A stretch of 33,549 nucleotides of DNA from Bacillota bacterium (GTDB taxonomy: Bacteria; Bacillota_I; Bacilli_A; Erysipelotrichales; Erysipelotrichaceae), in assembly GCA_030526175.1 (NCBI GenBank), contig JAUNDJ010000014.1:1-33549 (forward strand), read 5' to 3'. The notes under the pieces were generated by a model that had not been told where the DNA came from, ran no database searches, and saw nothing but the letters and a program-made list of their open reading frames with translations. Each line of letters opens with the position of its first letter. The stretch's first letter is position 1. Of this stretch, positions 293 through 10,300 are shown one piece after another. The position numbers and the translations under genes were made by a program.

Positions 293-2209
293 TTAGCGTA
301 CAGTAGAACCGTTTTTTACTTCTTTGTCTGGAGTGATTACACAAGTTTTCTTTTTACTATCGGCACTTAAGATCATTCCATTTGATTCAATACCATGAAT
401 TGTAGTTGGAGCTAAGTTTGTCACAACAACAACTTGTTTTCCAAGCAATTCTTCTGGTTTGTAGTATTTAGAAATTCCACTTACGATTTGACGCGTTTCT
501 TTCCCAAGATCCACTTTGCATACTAACAAGTGTTTTGCTTCTTCGTGTTGGTAACATTCTTTTACTGTACCAACTTTTAATTCTACTTTTGAAAAATCTT
601 CAATTGTGATTTTTGGTTCTTCGGCTTTTTTCTTTGCTTCTTTTTGATTTTCTACTTCTTTCATAAACTTAGCAGCATCAATACGAGCAAATAATGGTTC
701 CATTTTTTCAGCTACTTTAATTTCTGTTTCTAATTGACCAAATTCTGTAATTGTATCAAAATCACGTTTTTCTGTTCCAATCGCATCTAAGATTTTCTTT
801 CCAGTTTCTGGTAAGTAGCTTTCTAATAAAACTGCTGAAATACGAATTGCTTCTAATAAGTTATATAAAACTGTTGCCAAACGATCTTTCTTATCTTCTT
901 CTTTCGCAAGAGCCCATGGCATAGTTTCATCAATATATTTATTTGATCTTCTTAATAATGCGAAAATTTCATTTAGTGCATCAACGACATGGAAGTTTTC
1001 CATTTTTGCTTCTACTTTCGCTAAACAAGAAGTAGCCATTTCTTTTAATTCTTTGTCCACATCTTCTTCAACACCAGGGTTTGTCACAACTCCATCAAAG
1101 TATTTATTTTCCATCGCAATAGTACGAGATACTAGGTTTCCTAAGATATTGGCTAAATCAGAATTAATACGTTCAATAACTAAATCCCAAGTAATTGTTC
1201 CGTCTTGTGCAAAAGGCATTTCATGTAAACAATAATAACGAACGGCATCAACACCAAATGCTTCAACCAATTCTTCGGCATAAATTACATTTCCTTTAGA
1301 TTTAGACATTTTTCCATCCCCAATCAATAACCATGGGTGTCCAAATACTTTCTTAGGAAGAGGTTCTCCCAATGCCATTAAGATAATTGGCCAAATAATA
1401 GTGTGGAAACGTAAGATATCTTTTCCAATAATGTGTGTTCCTGGCCAGTATTTTTTGTACATTTCTCCACTTTCTCCATCAGGGTTATATCCTAATGTAG
1501 TGATATAGTTAGAAAGTGCATCGATCCAAACGTATACAACGTGTTTGTCATCAAAATCTACTGGAACACCCCAAGTAAATGAAGAACGTGACACACATAA
1601 ATCTTGAAGCCCTGGTTTAATAAAGTTATTAATCATTTCATTTCTTCTAGATTCTGGTTGAATAAAATCAGGGTGCTCTTCGATATATTGTGTTAATTGC
1701 CCAGCGTATTTTTGCATATTGAAGAAATATGCTTCTTCTTTTGCTGGTTGAACTGGACGACCACAATCTGGACAACATCCGTCTACTAATTGAGATTCAG
1801 TCCAGAAGCTTTCACATGGTGTACAATACAATCCTTCGTAATATCCTTTATAGATATCTCCTTGATCGTATAACTTTTTAAAGATTTTTTGAACAGTTTT
1901 TACGTGTTGTTCATCTGTTGTACGAACAAAATAATCGTAACTTGTATTCATTAAATCCCAGTTTGATCGAATTTTCCCAGCAACTTCATCCACGAATTGT
2001 TGTGGAGTAACACCAGCAGCTTTCGCTTTTTCTTCAATTTTAATACCATGTTCGTCTGTTCCTGTTTGGAAGAAGACATCATATCCTTGTGCTCTTTTAA
2101 AACGCGCAATCGCATCGCTTAAAATAATTTCATAAGTATTCCCAATATGAGGTCTACCTGATGTATAAGCAATTGCCGTAGTTAAATAATAGGGTTCTTT
2201 TTTTATCAT
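293..2209 (-). CDS. metG: Methionyl-tRNA synthetase
   Basis: MetRS charges tRNA-Met with methionine in the cytoplasm. The 638-residue product shows the class I signature PHIGN near residues 20-24 and KMSKS near residue 299. A zinc-binding insert with cysteines in CTPC and CCPDC patterns lies near residues 126-149. A C-terminal tRNA-binding OB domain of the Arc1p/EMAPII type runs from about residue 535 to the end. I chose the ATG of MIKKEP at 2207-2209 because GGAGG lies at the right distance; the longer open frame upstream runs into the T-box leader and is not conserved-looking. Expression is controlled by the Met T-box directly upstream. A 62-residue membrane protein gene follows 3 nt after the stop. 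Confidence 0.97.
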   Translation of the reverse strand: MIKKEPYYLTTAIAYTSGRPHIGNTYEIILSDAIARFKRAQGYDVFFQTGTDEHGIKIEEKAKAAGVTPQQFVDEVAGKIRSNWDLMNTSYDYFVRTTDEQHVKTVQKIFKKLYDQGDIYKGYYEGLYCTPCESFWTESQLVDGCCPDCGRPVQPAKEEAYFFNMQKYAGQLTQYIEEHPDFIQPESRRNEMINNFIKPGLQDLCVSRSSFTWGVPVDFDDKHVVYVWIDALSNYITTLGYNPDGESGEMYKKYWPGTHIIGKDILRFHTIIWPIILMALGEPLPKKVFGHPWLLIGDGKMSKSKGNVIYAEELVEAFGVDAVRYYCLHEMPFAQDGTITWDLVIERINSDLANILGNLVSRTIAMENKYFDGVVTNPGVEEDVDKELKEMATSCLAKVEAKMENFHVVDALNEIFALLRRSNKYIDETMPWALAKEEDKKDRLATVLYNLLEAIRISAVLLESYLPETGKKILDAIGTEKRDFDTITEFGQLETEIKVAEKMEPLFARIDAAKFMKEVENQKEAKKKAEEPKITIEDFSKVELKVGTVKECYQHEEAKHLLVCKVDLGKETRQIVSGISKYYKPEELLGKQVVVVTNLAPTTIHGIESNGMILSADSKKKTCVITPDKEVKNGSTVR

Positions 2210-2229
2210 TATTACATTCCTCCTAAAAA

Positions 2230-2434
2230 ATAAAAAAGCTTTCATCCAAGGACGAAAGCTTCGCGGTACCACCTTAGTTTATGCATAAAAATGCACCTCA
2301 AATCGTTAACGCCGATATACGTCCTTTATGGAAGCTCCAAGACCATCTTCACCTAACATCCTTTACATGATTCCACCAAACACATGCTCTCTATCAAATT
2401 CCATTAGGATACTCTTCTTTTCATTGCTGTAGCA
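2230..2434 (-). ncRNA. T-box riboswitch with Met (AUG) specifier, upstream of metG
   Basis: The minus-strand leader carries the conserved T-box element TGGTACCGCG (2262-2271), followed by a strong terminator stem (about 2234-2261) and a T run. The Stem I base contains GAAGAGTA followed by CCTAA, which pairs with TTAGG on the 3' side. After TTAGG comes GTGAAG-ATG-GTCTTGGAGC, the usual specifier-loop layout, giving the specifier codon ATG at 2344-2346. AAGG before the T-box can pair with CCTT after it to form the antiterminator. Known for the family: uncharged cognate tRNA pairs with specifier and T-box bulge and allows readthrough. Here uncharged tRNA-Met should induce metG. Confidence 0.9.
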
Positions 2435-2469: not shown

Positions 2470-2486
2470 GAACGAATTCTTGTCTT
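2459..2486 (-). terminator. Terminator of the RDD-PHP gene
   Basis: A 9-10 bp stem (2464-2472 with 2477-2485) with a TTCG loop on the minus strand, followed by TTTTC. It starts inside the stop codon of the RDD-PHP gene (2485-2487) and overlaps the -35 of the metG promoter. Confidence 0.75.
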
Positions 2487-4074
2487 ATTGTGCTGCTTTT
2501 GTGATTACGCGTACTAATGGAAGTGCTTTTTCCGGACAATTTGTCATACCCATTTTATAATTTGGTTTAATTGCTCCATGATAATCACTACCACATGTGA
2601 TAAATCCTTTGTGCGCTTTTGTAACCTTTAATAAAGCTGTCATTGTTTGTGGATGCACCAATGGAGAGAAACATTCTGTTCCATCAAATCCACTCTTGAT
2701 TAATACTTCAATTCCATCATCACTAATCGAATCCATATGCCAACTTGAAAGAATGGCAATACCATTCGCATCGTGAATCGCATCAATTAATGTGCGAATA
2801 TCCGGATAGTCTCCTTGTACATAACATGGGCCTTTTGTACCAAAAATTCCATGTTTAAATCTTGCACGTGCTTCTTTCTCTGATTTAGACATTTTAATAT
2901 ATTTTTGAACCATTGGAAGCTCACGTACCGTTTTATTATTAAAGACCATTTTAGTGATATCTTCTGGTGTAATTGTTTGGAAACGAGAAGAAGAGATAAT
3001 AGAATCTACATCGATACCAATACCACTAAATTCTTCAAATTTCTTTACACGTAACATTGAAATATTCTTTTCTCTTTTTAAAGACTCTCTTTCAAATTCT
3101 TCAAAAACAGGATTATTCCAATCAATATAGTAGCCTAGCACACGAATTCTAACACCATTATATTGTCCGTCTAATTCCACTCCAGGAATATATTGGATAT
3201 TGTACAATTGGGCAAAACGTTCGGCTGCTGCATTGGCTCTTGCACAGTTATGATCGGTAATCGAAATAACTTGCATTCCATTTTCTTTAGCTTGTCTAAA
3301 GATTTCTTCAATATCGTATGAGCCATCATCACTATAAGTTGAACGAATATGTAAATCAATAGGACAAATTCCTTCCGGTGTTTCAGAAACAATTGGAATC
3401 GGCTGTACAACTTCCGGTTGTACTGGCTGTACATTTTCAACTGCAGGTTTCTTTATTGTACCTTTTACTTCAACATTTGAATAATCTGGTTCATTGACTA
3501 AAACCAATCCAAACGCTAAATCGAATAAGTTTTGTTGGTTTGGAGTAATTAATATTACAATACCGGTAATAATCCACCATACAATAATTCCAACAATTTG
3601 GAAAAAGTATCCAAATACTACAAGCGGAATCCCAAATCCTAAAGCTTGTCTTAAAATCAACATCAAAGGAGCGGCTTCCTTTTTATTTCTTTGTACGATT
3701 TTAATACCTGTTAATGTCCCACCAATGGTTTGTCCTTTTGTCGATGCAGTAAATACACCTAACAATACCGCTCCGATGATAAATAACATCGCATACATGA
3801 TATAGAATAAGAAATCAAATAAAAGCGGTGGTATGATACCACATAAAATCAACAAGAATTCAATCACCCATAAATACACAGGTAACAAACAAATATTTAT
3901 ATCTATTAAAAAGCAATAAAAATGGCTTTGGTAATCCTTTAAATTTCGTCCTAATGGTTTTGCATTTTGATATGCGCCATTACGATATAGTTGAGATTTT
4001 TTTAGAACAACGTTGTAATTAATAATCAGATCACGAATTTTTTGACCTAAACCTAGTTTACTAGAAATCCCCAT
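2485..4074 (-). CDS. RDD membrane domain fused to a PHP-type phosphoesterase domain
   Basis: This 529-residue protein has two parts. Residues about 45-205 are hydrophobic with several membrane segments and read as an RDD-family domain, including GGTLTGIKIVQRN and a final hydrophobic stretch before NLFDLAFGL. After a Pro/Val linker, residues about 237-529 form a PHP domain. Its motifs are DLHIRSTYSDDG (H242), SITDHN, PGVEL, a histidine in SSWHMDS, and GSDYHG near 495-500. In most PHP proteins motif I is HxH; here the second histidine is Arg244 (codon CGT at 3343-3345). The other ligands look intact, so metal binding may be altered rather than lost. The gene has its own promoter and terminator. 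Known PHP domains hydrolyse phosphoesters or act in DNA polymerases; the substrate here is unknown. The fusion tethers the domain to the membrane. Confidence 0.8.
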   Translation of the reverse strand: MGISSKLGLGQKIRDLIINYNVVLKKSQLYRNGAYQNAKPLGRNLKDYQSHFYCFLIDINICLLPVYLWVIEFLLILCGIIPPLLFDFLFYIMYAMLFIIGAVLLGVFTASTKGQTIGGTLTGIKIVQRNKKEAAPLMLILRQALGFGIPLVVFGYFFQIVGIIVWWIITGIVILITPNQQNLFDLAFGLVLVNEPDYSNVEVKGTIKKPAVENVQPVQPEVVQPIPIVSETPEGICPIDLHIRSTYSDDGSYDIEEIFRQAKENGMQVISITDHNCARANAAAERFAQLYNIQYIPGVELDGQYNGVRIRVLGYYIDWNNPVFEEFERESLKREKNISMLRVKKFEEFSGIGIDVDSIISSSRFQTITPEDITKMVFNNKTVRELPMVQKYIKMSKSEKEARARFKHGIFGTKGPCYVQGDYPDIRTLIDAIHDANGIAILSSWHMDSISDDGIEVLIKSGFDGTECFSPLVHPQTMTALLKVTKAHKGFITCGSDYHGAIKPNYKMGMTNCPEKALPLVRVITKAAQ

Positions 4075-4149: not shown

Positions 4150-4179
4150 AAAACAAAAAAGTCCTTTTTTCAAGGACTT
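4150..4179 (-). terminator. Terminator of the surface protein gene
   Basis: An 8-bp stem (4159-4166 with 4172-4179) followed on the minus strand by a T run. The stop codon at 4178-4180 lies within the stem. Confidence 0.7.
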
Positions 4180-5242
4180 AGTTTGTTCTTTTTTTCTTTG
4201 TCAATAAAGCAAGTACCGCCACCGAAATCATACATAGAACACTATAGAATGTTAAATTAGACGATACGGATGTATTTACTGTGCGAGAAGTAGTAGCGCC
4301 ATTTCCTGATAAGGAAATACGAATATCTCTTGCCGCATTGTATAATTTTGCAAAGCTTTGGCTTCCAGCATCGTACAAAATTGCGTTTACTTCACTTTTT
4401 TCTGCTGTCGACAATTCATACCATGCATTATAACCATTTAATAAAACATGATAATTTCCTGTTGTAACTGTCTTAATAATCGAACCGTTTAATACACAAT
4501 ATGAATTCACAAAGTTTTGTGCAGTTGTTTGATCGGCACTTTTTGTTGTTTGTTGTGCTTCAACATTTACAGTTTCAACGTTTACTTTATTCTCCACTTG
4601 TACTTCAGATTCGATTGTTTGCATATCTAAATTTGCAGTCACTACTTCTTGCGTAGCTGGTGCTTCGGCTACAAATAAGACATTTTCCACTGCCGCTTGT
4701 GCATCTGCTTCTTGATCGACTACAATTTCTTCTTCTGCTTCTGGATTTGTTTCTTCATCCGCTGGAGCATTTTCTACTTCAGGTTGTTCTTCCGCAGGTA
4801 CATTTTCCGGACCTACAACTTCTTCAGGTTGTTCTTCCGCAGAAGCTTCCTCTGATTTTTCCGCATTCACTTGCTCATTCATTTGGATAGCCGCTAATAC
4901 AAAATCATTATAAAGAACACCTGTATTTTCTAAAACAATCGCATCAATTTCTGCTCTTGTTTCTTCAGGCAATTGGTCATAGATTTGTTTTCCTAATAGA
5001 ATGATTTCATAATTTTCAAGTGTAACTTCTGTATGAAAATTTGAGACATTTACAATTTGACCCAATTCATCAACAATTTCCATTTGATATTTAGCATATA
5101 CTTCAACAAATTCTGTGGCATTTGTAATAACTACTTGTTCGCAATAACTATATTCATCCATCGCATAAATAGGTGCAACCGGATAAGCTAACGAAGATAC
5201 CATTATCCCCGCAAATAGAGTTCCTAGATGTTTTTTATTCAT
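4178..5242 (-). CDS. Secreted, C-terminally anchored protein with a duplicated domain and acidic linker
   Basis: The 354-residue product starts with a signal peptide (residues 1-27, cleavage probably after PIYA). It ends with a hydrophobic segment (about 330-347) followed by KKKRTN. This tail resembles a sortase substrate, but no LPxTG-like motif is seen before the helix, so it may simply be membrane-anchored. Two related domains flank an acidic Pro/Glu-rich linker (about 125-200). Residues 77-103 and 263-289 align as NY-x-[IV]-[IL]-L-x-G...L...[RK]-x-E-[IV]-x-AI-[LV], and residues 43-50 match 242-249. The start has TAGGAGTG at good spacing. It lies 42 nt after dxr in the same direction and may share that transcript. 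Function unknown; a cell-surface role is inferred. Confidence 0.75.
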   Translation of the reverse strand: MNKKHLGTLFAGIMVSSLAYPVAPIYAMDEYSYCEQVVITNATEFVEVYAKYQMEIVDELGQIVNVSNFHTEVTLENYEIILLGKQIYDQLPEETRAEIDAIVLENTGVLYNDFVLAAIQMNEQVNAEKSEEASAEEQPEEVVGPENVPAEEQPEVENAPADEETNPEAEEEIVVDQEADAQAAVENVLFVAEAPATQEVVTANLDMQTIESEVQVENKVNVETVNVEAQQTTKSADQTTAQNFVNSYCVLNGSIIKTVTTGNYHVLLNGYNAWYELSTAEKSEVNAILYDAGSQSFAKLYNAARDIRISLSGNGATTSRTVNTSVSSNLTFYSVLCMISVAVLALLTKKKRTN

Positions 5243-9008: not shown

Positions 9009-9413
9009 TTATCGATAGAAACACTTCACTTCGTACTTCCATCTGTATCCAACGCCACGTTCTGTATCAATAAGTTCTTCATCTAATAGTTCTTTTAATT
9101 TTTCCTTTAGTCTGTGCACGCATTGATTTAGGGCGTTTTCAGATAAAGGCGATGCACAATCACTTAAGATGTTACAAATGTTTTCACGCGAATGAATAAT
9201 CGTTGGATCCATAATTAAAATTTCCAAAAGAATCATTGAATTCTTAGTTAATTTTGTACTTTTGTCTCCATATTCCACTGTTAATGAACAAGGAATAATT
9301 TTTAGTCCATGCGTTTCATAATATGGATTCTGATTTGCAAATTTAGTACCAGCATAGCTCATTTCTTTTTCTGCAACTAAGCCGAAATAAGGATTTGAGG
9401 ATTTATTACCCAC
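9009..9413 (-). CDS. Winged-helix (OmpR/PhoB-type) DNA-binding protein, 5' end interrupted
   Basis: The C-terminal half (about residues 40-128 of this frame) reads as a transcriptional regulatory protein C-terminal winged helix: SLTVEYGDKSTKLTKNSM, then the recognition region ENALNQCVHRLKEKL and the wing GVGYRW. There is no receiver domain. The start is uncertain. GTG 9411-9413 has an AAGGAGG, but about 15 nt away, which is too far. Upstream, the same frame stays open back to a TAA at 9492-9494. Before that lies a well-formed start (see 9492-9533). The gene therefore looks like a 174-codon frame broken by one nonsense codon. Its neighbour glgP, 114 bp downstream, is a possible target, but that is inference. 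Confidence 0.55.
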   Translation of the reverse strand: MGNKSSNPYFGLVAEKEMSYAGTKFANQNPYYETHGLKIIPCSLTVEYGDKSTKLTKNSMILLEILIMDPTIIHSRENICNILSDCASPLSENALNQCVHRLKEKLKELLDEELIDTERGVGYRWKYEVKCFYR

Positions 9414-9640: not shown

Positions 9641-9671
9641 AGCAAAAAAAAATTGAGATTTCTCTCAATTT
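9641..9671 (-). terminator. Terminator of the ispF-dtd-DUF951-ychF-M50 operon
   Basis: A 9-bp stem (9650-9658 with 9663-9671) with a GAAA loop on the minus strand, followed by a run of T. It abuts the stop codon of the M50 protease gene. Confidence 0.8.
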
Positions 9672-10300
9672 TATAAAATGTTTATACAAATATTCGAAAA
9701 GATATCAATTAAATTGCTTGTCAAAAGTGAAATTGGACCGCCAATCAATCCGCTTAAAATCAGTGCAAAAAGGATAATTGTCCAAATTTTATTCTCCTGA
9801 ATTGCTTTGTAATATATGTCATCTGGTAAAAAAGCAAACAAAACTTTTGACCCATCCATAGGTGGAATTGGGATCAAATTGAATATTCCTAACGATGCAG
9901 AAATTGTTGCTGTATAAGACAAAATTGTTTGAATTACTCTTCCCGCAATCCCCATCGAGTATAAGAAACGATACGTACCATAAAACAAAACAACGCAAAT
10001 AAAAGATAGTAAAAAATTAGCCATTGGTCCTGCAAAAGAATTCCATACTATTCCCGTTTTTCTATCTTTATAGTATCGCGGATCAATAGGGACTGGCTTA
10101 GCCCAACCAATCCCAAAAATCAACATACAAATCAATCCAGCAACATCAATATGTGCTAAAGGATCTAGAGTCAATCTCCCTTTTTCTTTAGCAGTTGGAT
10201 CGCCCATCAAGTAAGACACAAGAGCATGTGCCATTTCGTGAACACCTAACGCAAGAATAACGGCAATTCCTCTATAGAAATAAGATTGAATATCCATCAT
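9671..10300 (-). CDS. Site-2 protease family (M50) intramembrane metalloprotease
   Basis: The 209-residue protein is mostly hydrophobic, with about five to six membrane segments. It carries the zinc motif HEMAH near residue 21 and the second motif NLIPIPPMDGSKVL, where the aspartate of MDG supplies a ligand. It lacks a PDZ domain and so resembles the short YwhC-like site-2 proteases rather than RseP. The dxr-linked rseP found in many Firmicutes is not seen here. It is the last gene of a five-gene operon and starts 8 nt after the ychF stop, with AGGAAATGG as ribosome-binding site. The substrate is unknown. Confidence 0.88.
   Translation of the reverse strand: MMDIQSYFYRGIAVILALGVHEMAHALVSYLMGDPTAKEKGRLTLDPLAHIDVAGLICMLIFGIGWAKPVPIDPRYYKDRKTGIVWNSFAGPMANFLLSFICVVLFYGTYRFLYSMGIAGRVIQTILSYTATISASLGIFNLIPIPPMDGSKVLFAFLPDDIYYKAIQENKIWTIILFALILSGLIGGPISLLTSNLIDIFSNICINIL

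Follow-up and report, generated by a model that had tools for sequence, protein, structure and literature searches.

The stretch of DNA analysed here, which we refer to as the window, comprises 33,549 nucleotides of contig JAUNDJ010000014.1 from a gut-type bacterium of the family Erysipelotrichaceae. An open reading frame on its minus strand (2485..4074, ATG start) encodes a protein of 529 amino acids (P0001) that consists of an N-terminal RDD membrane domain (residues 54-187; 3514..3915, minus strand), a linker rich in proline, valine and glutamine (approximately residues 193-239; 3358..3498, minus strand) and a C-terminal PHP domain (approximately residues 240-529; 2488..3357, minus strand), the last delimited by profile match, predicted model and fold match. 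A sequence-only reading of the gene had proposed this fusion, and profile searches bear it out: PF06271 (RDD) matches residues 54-187 with E 7e-8 and 33.3 bits against a gathering cut-off of 24.1, and PF02811 (PHP) matches residues 240-304 with E 1.4e-10 and 42.2 bits against 26.4, so that the RDD assignment, which had been put forward without such a search, holds. The AlphaFold2 model of the protein, built from 41 sequences, has a mean pLDDT of 90.2 and a pTM of 0.57, the two halves being separated by a disordered part of the linker (residues 206-231, pLDDT below 50).

The neighbouring genes are shared among many of the 51 loci that encode a fused relative. Downstream lies metG (methionine--tRNA ligase, identified by Pfam and NCBIfam; 293..2272, minus strand), and a gene of the same cluster is found downstream within six open reading frames in 43 of the 51 loci, at a distance of at most 410 bases in 31; three of the eight loci that lack it are at or near a contig edge. 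This cluster was formed by single-linkage BLAST, and its Pfam and NCBIfam identity rests on the member in the window. Upstream lies P0002 (354 amino acids; 4178..5242, minus strand), a surface-type protein with a leader that by eye resembles a signal peptide, a C-terminal transmembrane segment and a basic tail; its model (mean pLDDT 68) contains two folded alpha/beta regions with a disordered linker between them. P0002 has no Pfam match above cut-off in a search to E 1 and no match among solved structures at Foldseek E <= 0.001. The motif ...NY..IL.G...W..LS... occurs in it twice, around the disordered acidic linker, and the protein evolves fast (20-37% identity to relatives in 18 loci) while its position upstream of the fusion gene is kept. 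Further along the window are a 134-residue protein with an OmpR-type winged helix (Trans_reg_C) and no match to a receiver domain (9009-9413, minus strand), whose cluster is present in 14 of the 51 loci, mostly beside a glycogen phosphorylase cluster, and a small M50-type membrane peptidase of 209 residues (9671-10300, minus strand), in which RseP models match the C-terminal stretch only.

The PHP half can be placed among solved structures by means of the predicted model. Residues 237-529 match CV1693 (2yb1) with Z 26.2 and an rmsd of 3.1 over 267 residues, and approximately the same stretch also matches BAD_1165 (3e0f), RNase AM (7ug9, Z 25.7) and the RNase AM of Vibrio cholerae (9etk). Taken over RNase AM (also named YciV or RNase RNM) and CV1693 together (7ug9, 9etk and 2yb1), the common fold covers approximately residues 235-529 with Z of 25.6-26.2, and the first histidine and the aspartate of motif I, the TDH motif, the glutamate and the D-x-H ligands all align with the window protein. 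The model thus shows a predicted RNase AM / nucleoside-bisphosphatase fold. The nearest solved structures are of enzymes that act on 3',5'-nucleoside bisphosphates and 5'-phosphorylated RNA; a signalling nucleotide or a lipid-linked phosphate, which the sequence-only reading had suggested as substrate, remains speculative for the window protein. Membership of a characterised family of equivalent function does not follow from the fold: the window protein scores 75.2 bits with NF041577 (3',5'-nucleoside bisphosphate phosphatase; 400 needed), 53.7 bits with NF047791 (RNase RNM / RNase AM; 375 needed) and 64.4 bits with NF041661 (phosphoribosyl 1,2-cyclic phosphate 1,2-diphosphodiesterase; 500 needed). 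It differs from RNase AM and CV1693, with which it shares 20-26% identity, in the replacement of three of the nine metal ligands and in the fusion to a membrane domain.

The metal site was compared position by position. The second motif I histidine of RNase AM, His15, is presumably a further ligand of Mn-alpha. PMC9410882 names His13, Glu72 and Asp255 as ligands of Mn-alpha, Glu72, His83 and His198 as ligands of Mn-beta, and Asp20, His45 and His257 as ligands of Mn-gamma. In the alignment, the nine positions are occupied in the window protein by His242, Arg244, Asp250, His275, Glu300, Arg311, Ser444, Asp497 and His499; six of the nine residues of the trinuclear PHP site are kept, and positions 2, 6 and 7 are Arg244, Arg311 and Ser444. 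Position 3 is assigned to Asp250 because, in the proteins without an RDD domain, it is the residue preceding the glycine that is invariant. Motif I reads D240-L-H242-I-R244 (codons 243-245 at 3340..3348, minus strand; Arg244 at bases 3343-3345), which confirms the arginine that had been noticed at the second motif I histidine. The same reading had regarded the remaining PHP motifs as kept and Arg244 as the single deviation, and on both counts the alignment disagrees. The segment VRIRVLG carries Arg309 and Arg311 (codons 309-311, R-I-R; 3142..3150, minus strand), the latter at the place of the Mn-beta ligand His83, a position at which a metal-binding histidine is found in RNase AM and in almost every related PHP protein lacking an RDD domain. 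The segment SSWHMDS aligns with the canonical AHPG and has Ser444 (2743..2745, minus strand) at the metal-binding histidine of the AHP motif, His198 of RNase AM. We rejected SSWHMDS as a kept motif: its His446 is two residues away from the ligand position, and six of the 25 members of the clade described below have N, Q or R there instead of histidine. Judged by these residues, the Mn-beta site is lost, both of its own ligands being replaced, the Mn-alpha site is damaged by one arginine, and the Mn-gamma site (Asp250, His275, His499) is complete.

Arginines in place of PHP metal ligands are documented in DNA polymerases. In PMC3666897, the PHP domain of E. coli DNA polymerase III alpha is described as a variant PHP domain, that is, one with the PHP fold in which some ligands are replaced, and Arg203 and Arg10 occupy two of the metal places. 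The window protein falls under this description, though it is no polymerase, and shares with polymerase III alpha the incomplete ligand set, the arginines and the retained fold. The positions differ: that source gives arginine at positions 1 and 9, phenylalanine at 4, glycine at 7 and aspartate at 5 for the polymerase, whereas the window protein has arginine at positions 2 and 6 and serine at 7 and keeps the Asp-His-His gamma site. No active PHP subfamily with arginine at the position of Arg244 was met among the sequences aligned here or in the literature used for other points. A search of open-licence PubMed Central found no paper on an RDD-PHP fusion, and PMC12419801 does not appear to describe one either. 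The combination of a membrane fusion with graded erosion of the metal site in one family was likewise not found in the open-licence PubMed Central literature searched.

The RDD half of the window protein has hydrophobic stretches at residues 50-115 and 134-181 and model helices at 45-62, 64-77, 83-111 and 136-176. The RDD family is named for one conserved arginine and two conserved aspartates, to which His51, Asp58 and Asp185 probably correspond here by alignment. Both aspartates are invariant in our alignment. At the start of helix 1, just ahead of the Pfam-matched region, where the arginine is expected, His51 is present in all 27 rows of the Arg clade and the Merdibacter group (both described below) that cover the position, and arginine in 19 of the 22 other fused rows that do so. 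Compared with RDD membrane proteins such as that of Halobacillus andaensis (PF06271; PMC5996927), the window protein scores above the Pfam cut-off and has the conserved helix-1 aspartate; it differs in the helix-1 histidine, common to the Arg clade, and in the added C-terminal PHP domain. For that one RDD protein, the source reports Na+(Li+,K+)/H+ antiport, for which R35 and D42 are dispensable and other residues are needed; from their spacing of 7, R35 and D42 probably correspond to His51 and Asp58. The proposal that the RDD domain tethers the PHP domain to the membrane fits this evidence.

A search of 315 order-level genomes at E <= 1e-50 finds relatives of the fused protein in 51, every one belonging to the same family group as the window, Erysipelotrichaceae (Holdemanella, Faecalicoccus, Faecalitalea, Catenisphaera, Floccifex, Ileibacterium, Allobaculum, Merdibacter, Traorella and Absicoccus); at least two of the 51 proteins (G002 and G163) end at a contig edge. 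At E <= 0.001, Pfam recognises the PHP domain in 51/51 and the RDD domain in 50/51 of them (RDD in 24/24 and 26/27 of two sets). No fused relative outside Erysipelotrichaceae was found among 395 genomes of the class (E <= 1e-25) or 392 of the phylum (E <= 1e-20), where matches outside the family covered the PHP part alone. An apparent second RDD-PHP protein in a Clostridium metagenome-assembled genome (L134, match to 85-510) was rejected, as the match extends across two genes, a neighbouring one of DUF1980_C type and a PHP gene distinct from it. Two metagenome-assembled genomes of the RUG series labelled Erysipelothrix rhusiopathiae (L108 and L115) have the fusion beside neighbours of gut Erysipelotrichaceae type, and their species label may be doubtful. 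A scan of contigs with the peptide patterns ISITDHN[CN] and R[VIL]R[IV]LGYYI, limited to the best 80 matches, tilts towards the Arg311 type and was not used for frequencies.

Incomplete metal sites prevail among the fused proteins. All nine ligands are present in only three (G027, G165 and the Traorella protein G283, locus L129), two are missing in ten, three in 22 and four to eight in 16, so that 48 of the 51 lack at least two. By comparison, 32 of 33 related PHP proteins without an RDD domain from the same order have all nine; these controls are PHP-only matches for which the DNA was taken, a partial list and no random sample, in which one gene found twice (L202, L023) is counted once. The sole exception (L199, G035:C10) has eight, with a glutamate for the histidine at site 6 that may be an alternative metal ligand. 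One control, L184 (G003:C13), differs N-terminally: it is a second PHP protein of 515 residues with nine ligands, whose N-terminus by eye resembles a HAD phosphatase, making it another PHP fusion. The three intact fusions have the same domain order as the window protein and a similar length (485-554 residues) and can be aligned with it; they differ in possessing all nine ligands. The genome of G165 also encodes, two open reading frames downstream of the intact fusion gene, an RDD-half paralogue (L061) with a long Lys/Glu-rich tail instead of a PHP domain.

The window protein belongs to what we call the Arg clade, 25 proteins from 12 genera, of which 23 (10 genera) have arginine at 244 and two have leucine, the latter with further ligands gone. 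We rejected a sequencing error or isolated oddity as the origin of Arg244, because the arginine recurs in 23 of the 25 members and is encoded by four different codons (CGT, CGC, CGA and CGG). One protein outside the clade, G084, also has Arg at 244. Arg311 is more widespread (41 of the 51 fused proteins) and is found in all 25 members of the Arg clade, in 3/3 of the Merdibacter group (G257-G259) and in 7/7 of G158-G164.

A tree of 57 rows was computed with the ligand columns left out, including 249 and 309; column 250 was kept, a single column among 494 that is not expected to affect the result. The intact G283 is sister to four eroded proteins (G282, G284, G285 and G286), with the intact G027 next outside, and the intact G165 is sister to the remaining 44 fused proteins, all eroded, the relevant branches having 96-100% support. 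Since intact fusions thus branch beside separate eroded groups, there were at least two onsets of erosion, each starting from a fused ancestor with an intact site; the origin of the window protein is best explained by descent from such an ancestor, an RDD-PHP fusion with the RNase AM / nucleoside-bisphosphatase fold. In the Merdibacter group, the sister of the Arg clade, position 244 is still histidine, with Arg311 and Ser444 already in place; it follows that the beta site was lost before the motif I histidine became arginine. Parsimony places the latter change once, on the branch leading to the 25 proteins. Arg244, which had been treated as particular to the window protein, is consequently the final step in a stepwise loss of ligands that runs through the whole family. 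Arg279, Arg309 and Arg334, a gain of positive charge, are further residues common to the Arg clade and its Merdibacter sister group; position 279 is lysine in all 29 other tree rows. In other lineages, for example G009, G017 and G256, the gamma site is lost.

Within the Arg clade, Arg309, Arg311, His242 and Glu300 are present in all 25 proteins, Asp250, His275 and His499 in 24, and Asp497 in 22. Of the 295 PHP columns, 63 are invariant, including His242, Glu300, Arg309, Arg311 and Trp445. Parsimony counts no change at 242, 300, 309, 311 and 334, one at 244, 250, 275 and 499, three at 444 and 497 and four at 446, the mean PHP column having 5.0; as one change or none is counted in 92 of the 295 columns, the pocket sites are well conserved and not outstanding. 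The ratio dN/dS of the PHP half was estimated for 12 pairs by the Nei-Gojobori method with our own script and is 0.015-0.088 in the nine pairs where dS is unsaturated, being rough for five of these nine because dS exceeds 1. A pair in which the site is wrecked differently (G282 and G284) has 0.045. The PHP half is under purifying selection.

The reading we favour, and consider somewhat probable, is a membrane-anchored variant PHP protein that may bind a phosphate-bearing ligand and would have lost classical hydrolysis or retain it very weakly; it draws on residue identities, on the predicted model and on analogy. By analogy to E. coli DNA polymerase III, the guanidinium groups of Arg244 and Arg311 may replace the alpha and beta metals, one metal may still bind at the gamma site, and the pocket would hold a phosphate-bearing ligand, for example a nucleotide or a 5'-phosphorylated RNA end. 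Water would no longer be activated between Mn-alpha and Mn-beta. PMC9410882 proposes that in RNase AM these two metals coordinate the attacking water, and reports that the changes D20A, E72A and D255/H257A disrupt activity; because of this proposed role of the two metals, hydrolysis should be lost or very weak in the window protein. That the gamma site is kept almost without exception speaks for one bound metal and a real ligand. The protein would then be a membrane-attached module binding phosphate ligands, with the RDD domain as an anchor or regulated partner and the PHP domain, as we assume, in the cytoplasm. The suggestion of changed metal use, or of a binding rather than catalytic role, had been made from Arg244 and fits more strongly than was known then, with three ligands replaced instead of one. 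Against binding alone stands the good conservation, within the Arg clade, of six of the nine ligands, including the whole gamma site and the aspartate that may activate water (Asp226 in the M. tuberculosis PHP exonuclease): the reduced metal centre could still catalyse something. A further point against this reading is that, at E <= 1e-10, only 18 of the 25 Arg-clade genomes contain a separate PHP relative, the other seven (three of them at least 98% complete) having the fused protein or nothing at that threshold, so that a substitute enzyme of this kind elsewhere in the genome is not general.

We therefore weighed a remodelled but active phosphoesterase, which we regard as somewhat unlikely. 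It would work with one or two metals, gamma and alpha, the latter held through His242, Glu300 and Asp497, with the new arginines as electrophilic catalysts and a changed substrate at the membrane. The gamma ligands (24/25 each), Glu300 and His242 (25/25) and Asp497 (22/25) in the Arg clade agree with such an enzyme, as do Arg279, Arg309, Arg311 and Arg334, each in 25/25, and the low dN/dS. However, both non-bridging Mn-beta ligands are gone, and in RNase AM single changes such as D20A or E72A suffice to disrupt activity (PMC9410882). The PHP domain of PolC, with one Asp-to-Asn change, is reported in PMC3666897 to be inactive though metal-binding, and sister lineages of the fusion persist without the gamma site.

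A PHP half serving as a structural scaffold or protein-protein interaction module, without a small-molecule ligand and needed for folding or for tethering a partner, is in our judgement very unlikely. The loss of different ligand combinations in different lineages would suit it, as would the PHP domain of E. coli DNA polymerase III, reported in PMC3666897 to have a structural role; yet in the Arg clade the columns of the pocket rank with the better conserved ones, and a pure scaffold would have no need to retain the gamma site. A relaxed gene decaying towards loss is highly improbable: ligand loss in 48 of the 51 fused proteins, the further decay of two Arg-clade members (G016 and G306) and a copy in Allobaculum sp. 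Allo2 (L130) that is broken over several frames despite a complete-genome record, which may be an assembly error, are outweighed by the dN/dS values, which largely refute general decay, and by the 63 invariant columns across 25 proteins, an internal stop being counted in one order-level match (G282) and in none of the others.

The P0002 family is found upstream of the fusion gene in 20 of 25 Arg-clade loci against 0 of 26 other fused loci (one of the five Arg-clade loci without it, G002, ends at a contig edge), and a dxr cluster precedes it in 15 loci. These shared neighbours are compatible with an operon; they do not establish that the genes act together, as mere conservation of the entire block could give the same picture. 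A more specific and unlikely proposal is a membrane receptor derived from a dead enzyme, in which a single-metal pocket (Arg244, Arg279, Arg309, Arg311 and Arg334) would sense the phosphate of a cytoplasmic nucleotide or RNA end, gate or regulate the RDD domain and work with the co-inherited, surface-anchored P0002.

The incomplete metal site in a protein whose two Pfam domains both score well calls for caution in annotation by domain match. The fused proteins of Erysipelotrichaceae form a natural series within one family, leading from the intact fusion through loss of the beta metal and replacement of the motif I histidine by arginine to a nearly wiped-out site, and the intact relatives without an RDD domain serve as controls for this series. 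The family consequently offers a testable case of the transition from a metalloenzyme to a binding protein, and of arginines taking the place of metals in PHP domains beyond the DNA polymerases.
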